A stretch of 64,000 nt of DNA from the NCBI GenBank assembly GCA_020627535.1, contig JAHDGU010000004.1:186001-250000 (forward strand), given 5' to 3'. A model generated the notes under the pieces. It was not told the DNA's origin, did not search any database, and saw only the letters and a list, made by a program, of their open reading frames with translations. This document shows, piece after piece, positions 17,078 through 48,471 of this stretch (within the stretch, counting starts at the first letter, position 1; the number at the start of each line of letters is the position of its first letter). The position numbers and the translations under genes are program-made. This DNA comes from Saprospiraceae bacterium. Its GTDB lineage: Bacteria > Bacteroidota > Bacteroidia > Chitinophagales > Saprospiraceae.

Positions 17078-17833
17078 ATGACATTCAGAGAAAAACTCCG
17101 AGTTTACGGACGATTTATACGATTTGGGCTCTTCACGGCTACGATTGTCTTTCGCGTACTCATCAATGCCTACTTCAATAAAAAGCCCCTCCAGAAAGGG
17201 ATGGACATTCGTCAAGAGTGGGCCAATAAAGCGATCAGCGGCATCTACAAGTTTCGCATCGACAAGAAGGGTCAGGTGCCACAGGGGCAACATCTCTACG
17301 TGAGCAATCACCGATCTAGTATCGACCCCATCGTACTGCTACAAGATGTGAGAGCTAGTCCTGTCTCGCGAGCCGATGTCGAGCACTACCCTCTTGTCGG
17401 TCGAGGATCCAAGGCGACGGGTATCATCTTCGTCGATAAGGAAAATCGCCGAAGTCGAGCAGCCACTCTTCAAGCCATAGAAGCGGCATTCAAGCGTGGT
17501 GAGAGCGTGGTGCTATTCCCTGAAGGAAAGACGCATGCTGAGGATCTCACCATCCGCTTTCACATTGGTTCCTTCAGAGCTGCGGCCGAGCACAATGTGC
17601 CTGTGTTCCCGATGGCCATTGACTATAAGGTACGAGAAGACTACTGGACGCATGAGGATCCTTTTCTAGTGCATTTTAATAAACAGTTTGGAAGGCGAGA
17701 TGAGACGCAGTGCAAGGTAAGATTTGGCCAAAGCATTGCTCCTTCTACACCAGAAGAGATGATGGCTCAAGCCCAGAGTTGGATCAACGGTCAGATTGAG
17801 GAGATGCGTGAGGAGTGGAAGAGGGATTTTTGA
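17078..17833 (+). CDS. plsC: 1-acyl-sn-glycerol-3-phosphate acyltransferase
   Basis: The frame could open at a GTG at 17060, but that codon overlaps a perfect -7 promoter element, so the ATG at 17078 is chosen (251 residues). The PlsC catalytic motif NHRSSID is at about 77-83 and the glycerophosphate-binding FPEGKTH at about 147-153. A hydrophobic stretch near the N-terminus (FGLFTATIVFRVLINAYF) would attach it to the inner membrane. It acylates lysophosphatidate to phosphatidate in phospholipid synthesis. The stop codon lies inside a GATTTTG heptamer repeat. Confidence 0.9.
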   Translation: MTFREKLRVYGRFIRFGLFTATIVFRVLINAYFNKKPLQKGMDIRQEWANKAISGIYKFRIDKKGQVPQGQHLYVSNHRSSIDPIVLLQDVRASPVSRADVEHYPLVGRGSKATGIIFVDKENRRSRAATLQAIEAAFKRGESVVLFPEGKTHAEDLTIRFHIGSFRAAAEHNVPVFPMAIDYKVREDYWTHEDPFLVHFNKQFGRRDETQCKVRFGQSIAPSTPEEMMAQAQSWINGQIEEMREEWKRDF

Positions 17834-17872
17834 TTTTTGATTTTGGATTTTGGATTTTGGATTTTGGATTTG
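17825..17872 (+). repeat. Heptamer tandem repeat GATTTT(T/G), about 6.7 copies
   Basis: Two GATTTTT and four GATTTTG units plus a partial unit run over the 3' end of plsC. The stop codon TGA (17831-17833) falls in the second unit. Unit changes upstream of the stop would alter the plsC tail; those after it would not. No terminator hairpin is associated. Confidence 0.9.
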
Positions 17873-31545: not shown

Positions 31546-32601
31546 ATGCTAAAGAGTGCTGTAATCACCGGTATGGGCATGTATGTGCCAGAGCAAGTAG
31601 TGACCAATGATGATCTCGCTACCGTCATGGACACCTCAGATGAGTGGATTCAAGAACGTACCGGGATCAAAGAAAGAAGATATGGCAAGAGGAACGAGGA
31701 ATCTCCCGTGTCTTTTGCCAAACATGCCTCCGAGCAAGCCATCGCAGAGGCAGGCATTGATAAGAATGAGATAGACTTCATTATATTCGCGACGCTCAGT
31801 AGCGATTACTTCTTTCCAGGATGTGGCGTGCTACTGCAGCGAGAGCTCGGCATCACCAATACCGAGATCGGCGCCCTTGATGTCAGGAATCAGTGTAGCG
31901 GATTTGTCTATGCACTCTCCGTGGCAGATCAGTTTATCAAGACAGGCATGTACAAGAAAATCCTGGTCGTAGGCTCTGAGATGCACTCGATGGGTCTTGA
32001 CTTTAGCACGCGCGGCCGAGGCGTGACCGTGATCTTTGGCGATGGCGCTGGTGCGGCGATCGTAGAGCCCACAGAAGACGAAGGTCGTGGGATCTTGAGC
32101 ACACATCTCCACTCCAATGGTGAAGGGGCTGAGCAGCTTTGCATGATCAATCCGGGCGCTCACGGTGGCCGGTATGATGACGTGGACTACGGGTATCCAG
32201 AGACAAGATTCGGGTCGACATTTATCACGCAGAAGATGCTTGATAATGGTCTCAACTATCCATACATGAACGGACAGGCAGTCTTCAAAATGGCCGTCAG
32301 GAAGTTTCCAGAAGTCATCGGCGAGGCATTAGCACAGAACGAGTTATCAACTTCTGATATTGATATTTTCGTACCACATCAGGCCAATTTGCGAATTAGT
32401 CAGTTCGTTCAGAAAGTACTTAAGCTCAATGATGATCAAGTCGTCAACAACATTCAGAAGTATGGCAACACGACCGCAGCCTCTATCCCGATCGCTCTCT
32501 GTGAGGCATGGAAGGATGGTCGGATCAACAAAGGGGATTTGGTCTGTCTTGCAGCATTTGGCAGCGGATTTACCTGGGCGAGTGCGCTTATCCGCTGGTA
32601 G
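31546..32601 (+). CDS. fabH: 3-oxoacyl-ACP synthase III (KAS III)
   Basis: A 351-residue thiolase-fold enzyme with the catalytic triad Cys117 (RNQCSGF), His278 (VPHQANLRI) and Asn308 (YGNTTAAS), plus GDGAGAAIVEP. It condenses an acyl-CoA with malonyl-ACP to start fatty acid chains. Isolated from other fab genes here, so it may be one of several KAS III paralogues, as is common in Bacteroidota. Confidence 0.93.
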   Translation: MLKSAVITGMGMYVPEQVVTNDDLATVMDTSDEWIQERTGIKERRYGKRNEESPVSFAKHASEQAIAEAGIDKNEIDFIIFATLSSDYFFPGCGVLLQRELGITNTEIGALDVRNQCSGFVYALSVADQFIKTGMYKKILVVGSEMHSMGLDFSTRGRGVTVIFGDGAGAAIVEPTEDEGRGILSTHLHSNGEGAEQLCMINPGAHGGRYDDVDYGYPETRFGSTFITQKMLDNGLNYPYMNGQAVFKMAVRKFPEVIGEALAQNELSTSDIDIFVPHQANLRISQFVQKVLKLNDDQVVNNIQKYGNTTAASIPIALCEAWKDGRINKGDLVCLAAFGSGFTWASALIRW

Positions 32602-32622
32602 GTCGACACTCGGCGGCAGCTC

Positions 32623-33762
32623 TTAGAGCATTGCTCCCTCACTATTGACTCTCACAAAATTTCTGAAGTTGTCTCGCGTCACATTGTACTCTGCTGCTTG
32701 ATATGCATTGACAAATGTTCTTGAGAGTCGCTTGGTACGCTTAGAGGACCATTTGATTTCAAATCCAGACACATTGGTACCCATCTCTTCGACGTAGTCA
32801 ATTTCTTGTTGCTGCTTGGTCCTCCAGAAATAGTTTCTGGTATATCTCTTATGATATTCATTTTGCTTGACTCGCTCTGAGATCAAGAAGTTTTCCCACA
32901 GAGCTCCTTTGTCTGTTCTAAGATCAAGGTCGTCAAAATTGCCAAGGATCGAATTTCTGATGCCTACGTCATAGAAGTACACCTTGCGCCCTTTGCGGAT
33001 TTCATTGCGCTGATTGCGGCTGTAGCTTCTGAGGCTAAAAACAACAAAGGCTTTTTCGAGAATATCAATATACTTATCGACTGTCTTTTGATCTATCCCG
33101 AGCAAGCGTGACAGCTCGGAACTATTGACTTCGCTGCCTATCTGTAGGGCTAGTGCCCGGACGAGATTGTCCAAGATGTGAGACTTACGCAGATTGGTAA
33201 GGGTCAAGATATCCTTGTAGAGATATCCATCGACGAGATTGCGCAAGATCTCAATCTCATCACCAGGATTGTTGATGACATCAGGATAGAAACCATAGAG
33301 AAGTCGATTCTCTAAGTCCTGCTCTGCTGCCAAGTATCCGACGTGATCTTCATACTCTTCCCAACTGATAGGATACAACTCAAAGGACCACTTCCTGCCA
33401 GTGAGCGACTCATTGACTGCACCCTGCAGATCGAGAGATGAAGAGCCACTGATCCACAGCTGTACGTGCGGCAATTGATCAATGATGATTTTCGCTGTGA
33501 TCCCAATATTATCGATCCTCTGGGCCTCATCTATGAACATCACTGTGTTATCTCCGATCAACTGTCGTATTTGCTGCGTGGAAATATCCATCAATAGTGT
33601 CCTAGCTGCGGGGTCATCCCCGTCATAAAACAAGTAGTCACCATCACCTAGCAGGGATCTAATGAGACTGGTCTTCCCCACTTGCCTTGCCCCAAGCAGG
33701 ACGATAGCTTTTCCAGCACCGATCCTCTTGCGTATACGGTTTGATATTACTCGTTGTATCAC
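32623..33762 (-). CDS. AAA+ ATPase with DUF4143 domain
   Basis: A 379-residue protein: Walker A GARQVGKTSLI (24-34), Walker B NTVMFIDEAQRIDN (about 73-86), then a winged-helix linker (LSRLLGIDQKTVDKYIDILE) and a C-terminal DUF4143 nuclease-like domain with KVYFYDVGIRNSIL, EIDYVEEMGTNVSGFEIKWS and K-rich end. The family is abundant and mobile in Bacteroidota, with unclear function; a defence or mobile-element role has been suggested. The start codon is 9 bp from the edge of a 34-bp perfect palindrome, and a 32-bp phased array lies upstream. Confidence 0.9.
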   Translation of the reverse strand: MIQRVISNRIRKRIGAGKAIVLLGARQVGKTSLIRSLLGDGDYLFYDGDDPAARTLLMDISTQQIRQLIGDNTVMFIDEAQRIDNIGITAKIIIDQLPHVQLWISGSSSLDLQGAVNESLTGRKWSFELYPISWEEYEDHVGYLAAEQDLENRLLYGFYPDVINNPGDEIEILRNLVDGYLYKDILTLTNLRKSHILDNLVRALALQIGSEVNSSELSRLLGIDQKTVDKYIDILEKAFVVFSLRSYSRNQRNEIRKGRKVYFYDVGIRNSILGNFDDLDLRTDKGALWENFLISERVKQNEYHKRYTRNYFWRTKQQQEIDYVEEMGTNVSGFEIKWSSKRTKRLSRTFVNAYQAAEYNVTRDNFRNFVRVNSEGAML

Positions 33763-33771
33763 ATCATAAAC

Positions 33772-33805
33772 ATAACGATTTCGGAATTAATTCCGAAATC
33801 GTTAT
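33772..33805. promoter_or_regulatory. 34-bp perfect palindrome in the ATPase gene leader
   Basis: Two 17-base arms (ATAACGATTTCGGAATT and its complement) meet with no spacer. The palindrome lies 9 bp upstream of the ATPase start codon on the minus strand. Its right arm matches the end of the tandem unit that follows, so it is the mirror-image edge of the array. It could be an operator or would form a long hairpin in RNA or in extruded DNA. Confidence 0.85.
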
Positions 33806-34088
33806 AACTTTTTAGGACTTTATTCCTATATAGTTATGTTTTTTAAGGATTATAATCCTATATAGTTATAATTTTTTTGGTTTACTATCATATGTAGTTA
33901 TACTTTTCCAGGATTCTATTCCGATTTAGTTATACTTTTCTAGGATTATATTCCGATTTAATTATACTTTTCGAGGATTCAACGCTCGTAGCACTGAATC
34001 TTTCTAGCATTTTGTTCCTATTTCGCTATGCTATTACAGGATTATATTCCTATTTCGTTATGTTTATTTCGTATTGTAGGTATTTGCG
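33801..34088. repeat. 32-bp-phased tandem repeat array, about nine degenerate units
   Basis: Units begin at 33801, 33833, 33865, 33897, 33929, 33961, 33993, 34025 and 34057: nine steps of exactly 32 bp, the seventh and last strongly decayed. Each unit runs GTTAT(A/G), a T-rich spacer, a dyad such as GGATTATATTCC (perfect as GGATTATAATCC near 33847), then GATTTA or TATTTC. Three helical turns per unit would place all dyads on one face of the helix. Sequences differ by several bases but no indel has accumulated. Confidence 0.85.
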
Positions 34089-34225: not shown

Positions 34226-34244
34226 GTTTATACCTCAGTCGACA

Positions 34245-34925
34245 ATGTACATGAACACCCATCCATCTCGCATACAGCCATGTCCATCAGGCCTGTTGGT
34301 CATGACAAGACTTTGCATATTGGCTATGTGTACAGTGGCACTTATTCCCCACAGCGCTTCCGCGCAAATGGATGACAGCTGGAAACTTTCCAAAAACAAA
34401 AAGGAAATCTCCATCTACACCCGAAAGGTGGAAGGTGTAGGTCTCAAGGAATTCAATGCACAGATGACGGTGGATGCAACTGTCGATGAAGTGAAAGAGC
34501 GCATCTCAGCAGTCGATGACTACACCAGTTGGATGCACAACATGGTAGGCTGTTCCAAGAGTGAGGAGACCGATGAAGGCTTCTTGACCTACTGCCATCA
34601 AGCAGCACCATGGCCAGCACGAGATCGAGACATTGCTGTCAGACTCAAGTTTGAACCACTAGATGGTGGCGGCTTCTATGTGCGTATGATTTGCGAACCT
34701 GAAGCTATCAAGCTCAATGAGGATTTGATACGCGTCACTAAAGTAGAGGGTTTCTGGAAAGTCTACCCTCTCGAAGATGGCAGCACACATGTCGAGCAGC
34801 AGGTCTTAGCTGATCCCGCCGGAGTGATCCCGCTATGGTTGGCCAATATGGTCGTGACAGATAATCCCTACAAGAGTTATCAGGCGCTGCGAAGTCTCTT
34901 GGAAGGGAATGAAGCAGAAGAATAA
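34245..34925 (+). CDS. Secreted START / SRPBCC domain protein
   Basis: A 226-residue protein with a signal peptide; translation may start at 34245 or at the inner ATG (MTRLCILAMC, about 34302). The mature part is a START-type helix-grip domain: EISIYTRKVEGVGLKEFNAQ, VDDYTSWMHNMVGCSKSEET, CHQAAPWPARDRDIAVRLKF, LADPAGVIPLWLANMVVTDN. Such domains bind lipids or other hydrophobic ligands. An envelope lipid-binding role is inferred. Not obviously linked to its neighbours. Confidence 0.82.
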   Translation: MYMNTHPSRIQPCPSGLLVMTRLCILAMCTVALIPHSASAQMDDSWKLSKNKKEISIYTRKVEGVGLKEFNAQMTVDATVDEVKERISAVDDYTSWMHNMVGCSKSEETDEGFLTYCHQAAPWPARDRDIAVRLKFEPLDGGGFYVRMICEPEAIKLNEDLIRVTKVEGFWKVYPLEDGSTHVEQQVLADPAGVIPLWLANMVVTDNPYKSYQALRSLLEGNEAEE

Positions 34926-34930
34926 TCGAA

Positions 34931-35252
34931 TTAGTTCTTCCTATCCCCTTCCACTATTCGTCGAATCTCATTGGCGTCTTGTCTGTTGTCGAATACCCCA
35001 AGTATTGTGATCAGTGAACTATCATGAATGTAATAAATCGAGATATATTTTGTCACAACACACTTATGCAGGTCTTGCCGAAATTGAGAATGAGCATATA
35101 ATGAGGGGAAGCGTCTTATCCCGACGAGTCTATCGTCGAGCTTGATAATGAATTCCTTCTTGACTTTTGCCCCCCAATTCACGCTCTAGATATTCTAGAA
35201 TTAACTCTAACTGTCGCTGAGCCGTACGAGTCAGCTTGACATCGCGGCTCAT
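34931..35252 (-). pseudogene. RelE/ParE-family toxin gene, frameshifted in a C6 tract
   Basis: Translation from the ATG at 35252 gives MSRDVKLTRTAQRQLELILE and YLERELGG, an ordinary ParE N-terminus. It then leaves frame in a run of six C (35170-35175; six G on the coding strand) and stops after 41 residues. Removing one base restores ELGAKVKKEFIIKLDDRLVG, IRRFPSLYAHSQFRQDLHKC and IYYIHDSSLITILGVFDNRQ, a complete ParE-like toxin of 106 residues. The gene begins inside the antitoxin stop (ATGA overlap). It is either an inactivated toxin, a slippage-switched (phase-variable) toxin, or a sequencing error in the homopolymer. Confidence 0.82.
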
Positions 35253-35476
35253 GTTCGCCGAGATGACATAAAACTCTCATAGTCTATGGTCTTGCCTTCG
35301 AGACTTTCTTGAATTGATATCTTGATCATTTCTTGTTGATGAATGTCAAGTTCGTTCCAAAAATCTCCTGTATTCTGAGACTGCTCAAGCAATTGCCTAA
35401 CTTGCAAAATGACTCCCTCGTCTTCAGTATTTATGATTTGACGGATCAGCTGTAACTTTTGATGAGAGACTTCCAT
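35249..35476 (-). CDS. Antitoxin of a ParE-type toxin-antitoxin pair
   Basis: A 75-residue protein: MEVSHQKLQLIRQIINTEDE, GVILQVRQLLEQSQNTGDFW, NELDIHQQEMIKISIQESLE, ending DYESFMSSRRT. Small, acidic and helical, and placed directly before the toxin with a 4-bp overlap, as in other Bacteroidota ParE modules. It is intact. If the toxin is really frameshifted, the antitoxin may still be kept for regulation or against other toxins. Confidence 0.75.
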   Translation of the reverse strand: MEVSHQKLQLIRQIINTEDEGVILQVRQLLEQSQNTGDFWNELDIHQQEMIKISIQESLEGKTIDYESFMSSRRT

Positions 35477-35575
35477 CTGCGATAGTGTTTGACCTAAAAG
35501 TAAAACACATTTTCTCGTACCTTGAGTTCAACTCGCTCCATAACCACCATACATAAATTCACCAAAGCTTGAATT

Positions 35576-47973: not shown

Positions 47974-48340
47974 GGGGCTGACCGGTATTGACAGGAAATG
48001 TATTGGATCAGTAAGCATGCCGGAGCAGGGTTGTTCACTCCGTCAACAAATGATGATCAAACTTTACATGGCAATACTAGCTATGCAATGGCTGCCTAAT
48101 CAGAATTGATTACAAAGCCTTAATGCCCTACGCTTGACGTCTGATACACAGCGTGGCGCGTTTAACAAACCCTCAGACTAGGAGTATATAGGTCTCGACG
48201 TACTTCGAAATTTAAGAGAATAATCCTGTAGTGAAGTTGTCTGGTGACTTGCTGCAGGCCGAAAACTTGATATCAGACTAAGCATGTAGAAAGCTTTTGC
48301 GGACTTTCTCTGGACGCGAGTTCGATTCTCGCCAGCTCCA
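47974..48340 (+). ncRNA. ssrA: Transfer-messenger RNA (tmRNA)
   Basis: The 5' end GGGGCTGACCGGTATTGACAG pairs with CAGCTCC at 48333-48339 to form the tRNA-like acceptor stem, and the T-arm GTTCGATTC is just before. Discriminator A at 48340; CCA is not encoded (CGA follows). The tag frame from GGC at 48070 to TAA at 48097-48099 gives GNTSYAMAA, of the size and ending typical of Bacteroidota tags. It rescues stalled ribosomes with SmpB. Length 367 nt. The block downstream (48472-55310) looks accessory. Confidence 0.95.
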
Positions 48341-48471
48341 CGAATTGGGGTGTAGGTAAGTATAACTGCACATTGGAATTAGCGCGATCATCGGGCGTGG
48401 GTACATCCACCAAGAGTCGATCCTATGATGATCGGAACAACTCTACTTGCTACATTGATAAATCCTCTCGT

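Follow-up and report, generated by a model that had tools for sequence, protein, structure and literature searches.

A strictly phased array of 32-bp units directly upstream of a DUF4143 ATPase gene in a Saprospiraceae bacterium most likely constitutes the operator of that same ATPase, and comparisons across the family indicate that the protein very probably binds the array and controls its own gene. This conclusion emerged from the analysis of a 64,000-nucleotide stretch of DNA (hereafter the window; assembly GCA_020627535.1, 4.09 Mb in 25 contigs) together with homologous loci from other genomes. The repeat letters vary from locus to locus, and the conserved feature is the ruler.

Architecture of the window array

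The array is real. It comprises nine 32-bp units (33773–34060, no strand assigned), with one set of twofold axes (A) at 33788.5 + 32k (k = 0–8) and another (B) 16 bp from each of these, and it lies directly upstream of the ATPase gene. The gene-nearest unit is a perfect 34-bp palindrome in which both half-sites match (33772–33805, no strand assigned). It is the longest perfect palindrome of the window, the runner-up measuring 16 bp, and it stands 9 bp from the GTG start of the ATPase (33762, minus strand), exactly where the original prediction had located it at the array edge. Lag-32 self-matching over 33772–34088 reached 189 of 285 positions, versus 90.9 ± 7.2 in 5,000 mononucleotide shuffles. 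TRF placed a period-32 array at 33786–33979 with a score of 181, the top of its 29 rows for the window, and reported no second period-32 array in the 64 kb. The main repeat family in a repeat search has eight copies, spaced by 32 bp and once by 64 bp.

The register remains constant across all nine units to 34060. The proposed "nine 32-bp steps" hold as nine units in phase, whereas the steps from dyad to dyad number eight; counted by the chain rule, the array has seven units, the most among the scored loci. Most units do contain a dyad, as had been claimed for each of them, but the A dyads at k = 3, 6 and 7 are decayed, with the decay on one arm, and retain 2/7, 2/7 and 3/7 central pairs, respectively. 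Symmetry about the B axes is weak in the window, each of them having between 1 and 4 of the 5 central pairs. Instead of the single axis per unit originally described, the array has two alternating twofold axes, 16 bp apart.

The units differ among themselves by many point changes, as those of a neutral, decaying satellite repeat might. However, the same period occurs upstream of homologues with a different repeat sequence, and the DNA covaries with the protein (see below), which leaves next to no probability for such an origin. At 17824–17871, the window also contains a tandem 7-bp unit, GGATTTT, in 6.9 copies.

Domain organization of the ATPase

The open reading frame downstream of the array (32623–33762, minus strand) encodes a protein of 379 aa. 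Pfam identified AAA_14 (E = 5.1e-25; 88.4 bits against a cut-off of 27) followed by DUF4143 (E = 1.7e-41; 142.1 bits against a cut-off of 28.1), and the PADLOC model PDC-S01 matched residues 1–370 (E = 1.7e-154; 512.4 bits). We take the family to be COG1373. A search of NCBIfam gave no match, and a sequence search of the PDB found no credible relative, its single match having an E value of 0.85. The Walker A and B motifs and the PD-(D/E)XK-type residues D322, E335 and K337 are intact. In 135 array-bearing proteins, K30, D78 and D322 are present in all 135, E335 in 134 and K337 in 132.

An AlphaFold2 model of the protein (mean pLDDT 90.0) was used to assign a putative winged helix between AAA_14 and DUF4143. 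The helix formed by residues 225–237 in the model was taken as its recognition helix, with residue 224 just before it. Residues 316–319 form a turn between DUF4143 strands 309–315 and 320–327 of the model, immediately before the PD-(D/E)XK-type residues.

Occurrence of the array across the family

To define the distribution of the array, we examined two sets of loci. For the first, 60 genomes (the window genome included) were searched with the window protein, 27 of them having a match at 1e-30; 50 of the 56 matches were fetched, the other six being weak ones. A profile search against GTDB contigs returned at least 572 relatives, of which the best 80 were kept, and a profile scan of viral contigs contributed three more. 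Most of the nearest named homologues belong to Bacteroidota. After removal of one duplicate from 133, this set comprised 132 distinct loci chosen by their likeness to the window ATPase. For the second set, 395 genomes were drawn across the phylum, 48 of which had a match at 1e-60. It comprised 65 loci, one of 67 places not having been fetched and one partial locus (L214) having been dropped. The lag test compared the 160 bp upstream of each start and recorded the best 40-bp match among lags 20 to 60.

Lag 32 was the unique best lag at 80 of the 132 first-set loci, lag 33 at 16, and 14 were ties. A lag-32 match of at least 26/40 occurred upstream of the ATPase at 60 of 132 loci. Such a match was seen in 1 of 179 regions preceding other frames of these loci (any ATG frame of at least 150 codons, some of which are not real genes) and in none of the 108 regions that follow the ATPase. 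The second set gave a similar picture, with lag 32 as the unique best at 43 of 65 loci, lag 33 at 13 of 65, and a lag-32 match of at least 26/40 at 36 of 65. Across both sets (197 loci), lag 32 was the unique best at 123 loci and lag 33 at 29 (L075, L088, L091, L199 and 25 others), together 152; at the remaining 45, neither was, 20 of these being ties. To judge from the upstream sequences, the ruler may thus allow an additional base in certain lineages. The check proposed with the original prediction, a search for such arrays at other family members, was positive: period 32 recurs upstream of homologues, and the pairing of array and DUF4143 ATPase as a module extends across the homologues sampled.

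Viral contigs yielded no match in a single-sequence scan and three in a profile scan, one of which (L143) has lag 32 on top; a phage collection contained 18 distant records. With so few viral matches, a typical phage gene was ruled out.

Symmetry of the repeat

Twofold axes with at least 10 of 14 complementary pairs numbered 194 in the 132 loci, versus 20.2 per shuffled set. Pairs of axes were exactly 16 bp apart in 62 cases, with one pair at 15 bp, one at 17 bp and 28 at 32 bp. A dyad recurring every 32 bp entails another type of axis halfway between neighboring dyads; the array therefore resolves into 16-bp half-sites in alternating orientation. Over 92 scored loci (40 of the 132, with array scores below 14, were left out), the half-site consensus is approximately TAAT-xxxx-AAATxTTA, its variable word lying close to axis A. 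Only two units are present in 63 of the 92 scored arrays.

Covariation between ATPase residues and array letters

We compared the half-site letters with the aligned ATPase sequences at 90 loci (the 92 scored loci minus two with short proteins), orienting the half-sites from the DNA alone. In a blind scan across 312 columns of the protein alignment, with binning by overall identity, the word next to axis A (positions 5–7) was best matched by residues 226, 224 and 225 (r = 0.37, 0.27 and 0.24), the next residue reaching 0.11. Widening this word to positions 4–8 left residues 224–226 as the leading three. For the word next to axis B (positions 12–16), residues 317 (r = 0.34) and 316 (0.29) led, followed by 171 (0.24); restricted to positions 13–16, the order was 317, 171, 316. 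Control words gave maxima of 0.17 (positions 9–11) and 0.22 (positions 1–3, residue 51).

An unbinned scan over 5,000 residue-position pairs placed 224 with position 5, 316 with position 13, 317 with position 16 and 226 with position 6 as its top four. The following pairs had no obvious meaning (e.g., 27 with position 5 and 350 with position 16), and the high unbinned scores of residues without an obvious contact look like shared ancestry. Distant pairs gave small samples: among protein pairs below 40% identity, six share residues 224–226, and their words are no more alike than those of other pairs (1.77 versus 1.76 of 5); among pairs below 45% identity (n = 13), similarity was 0.55 versus 0.30 for the A word and 0.42 versus 0.28 for the B word.

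Taken as sequence statistics, these comparisons show that the letters of the array vary among loci and do so together with the linked ATPase. Beside axis A, half-site positions 5 and 6 can be predicted from residues 224 and 226, respectively; beside axis B, positions 13 and 16 can be predicted from residues 316 and 317, which lie in the DUF4143 hairpin. In the window, the codons of residues 224–226 (D-Q-K, start of the recognition helix) lie at 33085–33093 on the minus strand and would encode the axis-A reading surface; those of 316–317 (K-Q, the beta-hairpin turn of DUF4143), at 32812–32817 on the minus strand, would encode the axis-B surface.

A residue-to-base code and its prediction of new loci

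From these loci, we formulated a simple code, which was fixed before new loci were analyzed. At residue 224, D specifies C at position 5, and S or N does not. At residue 226, N specifies A at position 6, K specifies C, and E, Q or D specifies G. At residue 225, K, N or R specifies C at position 7, and S or P specifies A. At residue 316, K specifies G at position 13, T, A or M specifies A, and Y or H specifies T. At residue 317, Q specifies A at position 16, D or T specifies C or G, and A specifies T. Success was predicted for positions 5, 6, 13 and 16.

The held-out set consisted of 45 non-redundant loci with arrays; from the 65 loci of the second set, 18 with scores below 14 and two redundant ones had been dropped. 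Their proteins are 47–80% identical (median 57%) to the nearest training protein. In determinable cases, the code was correct for 224 and position 5 in 45/45, for 226 and position 6 in 27/28, for 316 and position 13 in 33/35, and for 317 and position 16 in 29/34, and all four rules exceeded the best of 2,000 shuffles (35, 20, 28 and 22, respectively). Residue 225 predicted position 7 in 27 of 32 cases, not above chance in this set (shuffled mean 25.4, p = 0.18), and its part of the code was dropped because it brought no gain over chance out of sample. Undeterminable or uncoded cases among the 45 numbered 0 for 224, 17 for 226, 10 for 316, 11 for 317 and 13 for 225.

Because shuffling ignores relatedness, we also formed disjoint nearest-neighbor pairs over 135 loci, training loci included. 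Where the two members of a pair differed in predicted base, the DNA differed as predicted in 13/13 pairs for 226, 10/11 for 316, 9/11 for 224, 2/4 for 317 and 2/3 for 225. Where the predictions were equal, the base was shared in 25/30 pairs for 226, 37/39 for 316, 47/49 for 224, 33/45 for 317 and 34/45 for 225. An unbinned blind scan of the 45 held-out loci alone ranked the coded pairs of residues 224, 316, 317 and 226 at 1, 3, 4 and 6 of 3,652; rank 2 was held by residue 253 with position 13, probably through ancestry.

The original prediction had read the strict spacing as selection for protein binding. The spacing fits such selection, and the covariation points to the ATPase as the binder. 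By these statistics, the ATPase itself would be the reader of its array, through two reading surfaces. Since the identification of the binder is drawn from covariation, another protein, such as a host repressor or a nucleoid protein, might be imagined to read the array instead; yet the letters track residues of the linked ATPase both in held-out loci and in nearest-neighbor pairs, and we regard a separate reader as very improbable.

Promoter overlap and genomic privacy

In Bacteroidota, the -7 box is TAnnTTTG. This motif occurs 10–75 bp upstream of the start at 81 of 132 loci, versus 12 of 132 after shuffling, and 53 of the 67 boxes in scored loci are displaced from an axis by 3–6 bp (modulo 16) toward the gene, a phase that may partly reflect the AT-rich half-site itself. 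As the boxes are phase-locked to the axes, a protein occupying the array would lie over the likely promoter of the gene. In the window, a near-consensus box (TATGTTTA, 33767–33774, minus strand), one mismatch from TAnnTTTG, overlaps the array edge, and its center is 2 bp from a B axis; the window array thus likely covers the promoter of its gene.

Within the 4.09-Mb genome, the paired-dyad pattern, with one mismatch allowed, occurs only in the window array. A regulon was rejected on this ground, the pattern being absent elsewhere in the genome. A second DUF4143 ATPase of the same genome has its own 32-bp array with other letters that fit its own residues; this locus belonged to the training set. 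In 12 genomes with at least two scored arrays (listed by hand), the words differ wherever determinable. Few word collisions would be expected among paralogues, so these differences were not counted as evidence.

Genomic neighborhood and mobility

The window copy of the module lies on a 288-kb contig, flanked by a gene for a FabH-like ketoacyl-ACP synthase III (31546–32601, plus strand) and a START/polyketide-cyclase-like gene (34245–34925, plus strand; Polyketide_cyc2, below the Pfam cut-off), both outside the module. In a genome of the same genus (G001), fabH (86% identical) adjoins the START-like gene, and both ATPase and array are absent between them. Array and gene were therefore gained or lost together. 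The 7-bp sequence GTCGACA stands at both module edges, at 32602–32608 (plus strand) right behind the FabH stop and at 34238–34244 right before the START-like ATG, possibly, as a weak indication, an insertion footprint.

These features, along with a slight excess of flanking repeats among homologous loci, would suit a mobile-element end bound by a transposition ATPase, as the original prediction of a mobile system allowed. The absence of the module from the syntenic site agrees with that part of the prediction, but flanking repeats over 86 loci gave no clear signal: those of at least 8 bp occurred at 13 loci versus 8.7 expected, with a mean length of 6.74 versus 6.15. A mobile element with target-site duplication was rejected on this slight excess. 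The genes adjacent to the ATPase in the window include no recombinase gene, the window contains no other 32-bp array, and no strong lag-32 match lies behind the gene at 108 loci. MuB/TnsC-type transposition ATPases are accompanied by matching two-sided element ends and a recombinase, and the window module has neither. We consider an element end improbable.

Equally improbable in our judgment is that the array is the centromere or replication iteron of a present or former plasmid, with the ATPase as its partition or initiator ATPase. This interpretation would be in keeping with the phasing of iterons next to an ATPase, with the presence of Cdc6/Orc1 initiators among the fold matches, and with distant relatives on plasmids (469 records), a ParB-family gene lying two genes from one of these. 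Against it, the sites overlap the promoter of the gene in fixed phase, the window copy sits between fabH and the START-like gene on its long contig, two units are the commonest number among scored arrays, and nine annotated plasmid neighborhoods, including the one with the ParB-family gene, share no recurring partner gene. Beside the window ATPase itself, no ParB or Rep partner gene was found, the adjacent genes being fabH and the START-like gene. On the promoter overlap, these gene neighbors and the lack of a recurring plasmid partner, the replication/partition iteron that had been proposed was not borne out.

Other features were recorded in the window. A fragment resembling a ParE toxin (Pfam ParE_toxin, E = 3.8e-4, below the cut-off) near a short reading frame, at 34931–35182 and 35230–35485 (both minus strand), is possibly the remnant of a toxin-antitoxin pair beside the module. 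A tmRNA gene with the tag DDQTLHGNTSYAMAA is located at 47974–48341 (plus strand).

Proposed mechanism

In the mechanism that we favor, the ATPase controlling its own gene, the protein would form a chain on the array, with winged-helix pairs at the A axes and DUF4143 pairs at the B axes. This would place two protomers on every 32 bp, or about three helical turns, and with pairs at every A and B axis the chain could be extended along the DNA. Such a chain would cover the promoter in fixed phase, so binding would be expected to repress the gene, probably under the control of the bound nucleotide; the regulatory sense could instead be activation. The covariation at axis B suggests a sequence-reading role for the PD-(D/E)XK-like domain, as a head within a phased polymer.

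A more elaborate version, which we put forward tentatively as a reasonable possibility, is a self-addressing DNA polymer. Here the two heads would define a private address, reader and address would change together, and the assembled state would restrain the putative nuclease and silence the gene until a trigger arrives.

It is also conceivable, if rather unlikely, that the array acts chiefly as leash and target: the ATPase-nuclease would be stored on its private array until the entry of a phage or plasmid, or some other trigger, frees it to attack DNA, and autoregulation would be secondary. The strong PDC-S01 match would accord with this, PDC-S01 ranking, in the available part of one survey, as the fourth most common defence system across prokaryotes, most such candidates still awaiting validation (PMC12988326). 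The nuclease residues are nearly invariant, DUF4143 residues covary with the B axis as those of a dimeric nuclease reading a palindrome might, and the nine-unit window array is longer than autorepression seems to need. On the other side, the genes flanking the window module are not defence-like, and the two-unit arrays that predominate among scored loci speak against storage. A defence role for the window ATPase is plausible but unproven. As for the original suggestion of an undescribed defence module, the match is to PDC-S01, a published yet unvalidated defence candidate.

For the array as an operator of its own ATPase, each copy in the 32-bp clade comes with a testable ligand, its own upstream array. 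The probable reading residues are named, the residue-to-base code held on new loci, and many protein-operator pairs with different addresses are on offer. If the self-addressing version is true, it would represent a novel type of switch for a defence system or selfish element, in a highly abundant ATPase-nuclease family, and a simple residue-to-base code would predict the address of an array from its protein.

Distant members with other layouts

Distant members of the family showed other upstream layouts. In one distant clade of 18 loci (L161–L178), the unique best lag was 22 in nine loci, 23 in two and 44–46 in four; one member (L175) carries five near-identical 23-bp units upstream of its DUF4143 ATPase. 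Direct repeats of 22 or 23 bp, not 32-bp dyads, also lie upstream at three plasmid loci (L151, L156 and L158). Twelve other distant loci gave no lag signal. Inspected by eye, most members of another distant clade (L179–L189) have, immediately ahead of the start codon, a single long imperfect palindrome of the type TTCGGCTATTTTTATA...ATAATAAAATnAGCCGAA and no repeat lag.

Of nine plasmid members inspected, those from Thermus, Acinetobacter and Aliarcobacter had no clear array, and one from Desulfosarcina had lag 32 weakly on top (21/40). On a Moraxella bovis plasmid (L152), a 45-bp hairpin at 1939–1983, with perfect 21-bp arms and a 3-bp loop, directly precedes the ATPase. A Calditerrivibrio plasmid (L157) carries a distant DUF4143 ATPase gene preceded, at 1533–1588, by 14-bp-period repeats of the AACGTTGAACGTTG type, and a ParB-family gene lies two genes from the ATPase. 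As these clades have different layouts, upstream sites may be a wider property of the family with clade-specific geometry, which we offer as a lead only.

Comparison with known systems

The closest solved folds found for the AlphaFold2 model are two archaeal ATPases, Paby2304 (2qen; Z = 16.1, rmsd 3.4, 252 aligned) and SSO1545 (2fna; Z = 15.3, rmsd 3.5, 255 aligned). The alignment covers residues 1–274, that is, the ATPase and winged helix, and ends before most of DUF4143. To our knowledge, no DNA site has been described for either protein. The Orc1/Cdc6 initiator on origin DNA (2qby) is a loose match (Z = 12.1, rmsd 9.3). Orc1/Cdc6 proteins combine AAA+ with a winged helix that contacts origin DNA; they target origins, whereas the sites of the window ATPase are at its own promoter. 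Searched alone with Foldseek, the C-terminal domain gave weak matches to McrBC, Hjc and AvaII (best E = 0.012, to McrBC; none at or below 0.001). Unlike in these PD-(D/E)XK enzymes, two reading heads would here alternate along an array.

By sequence, the window ATPase belongs with the AAA_14 + DUF4143 proteins known as PDC-S01, described in the accessible part of the source survey as fusions of an ATPase domain with a member of the PD-(D/E)XK superfamily, with 29,494 occurrences in bacteria and 9,986 in archaea and with validation pending for most such candidates (PMC12988326). An excerpt of a study of rumen genomes names PDC-S01 as the most frequent individual locus (PMC13356809), and TT_P0211 of Thermus thermophilus, with the same two domains, is listed as differentially expressed in the presence of a plasmid (PMC4406477, in extract). 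In the portions of the open-access literature on PDC-S01, COG1373 and DUF4143 available to us, we found no operator array, recognition code, validated function or ligand. By title and the start of the abstract, no open-access paper treats such arrays, subscription papers and bioRxiv preprints being outside the scope of this search.

The nearest functional parallel is provided by ParA/RepA autorepressors. RepA of repABC plasmids is an ATPase that binds imperfect operator palindromes and represses its own operon; each RepA is specific for its own operator, and ADP favors specific binding (PMC4492784, as excerpted). The window module resembles these systems in that palindromic sites overlap the gene's own promoter, as judged from consensus matches in homologues and a near-consensus one in the window, and in that the protein itself appears to read the sites, as covariation and held-out prediction indicate. 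It differs in protein family (AAA_14, winged helix and DUF4143), in being a single gene without a ParB-like partner, and in its 32-bp, two-axis array with a nuclease-like domain as the putative second reading surface. Self-binding ATPase operators are thus known already, and we rate the two-headed, phased design as the unusual feature of the present system.
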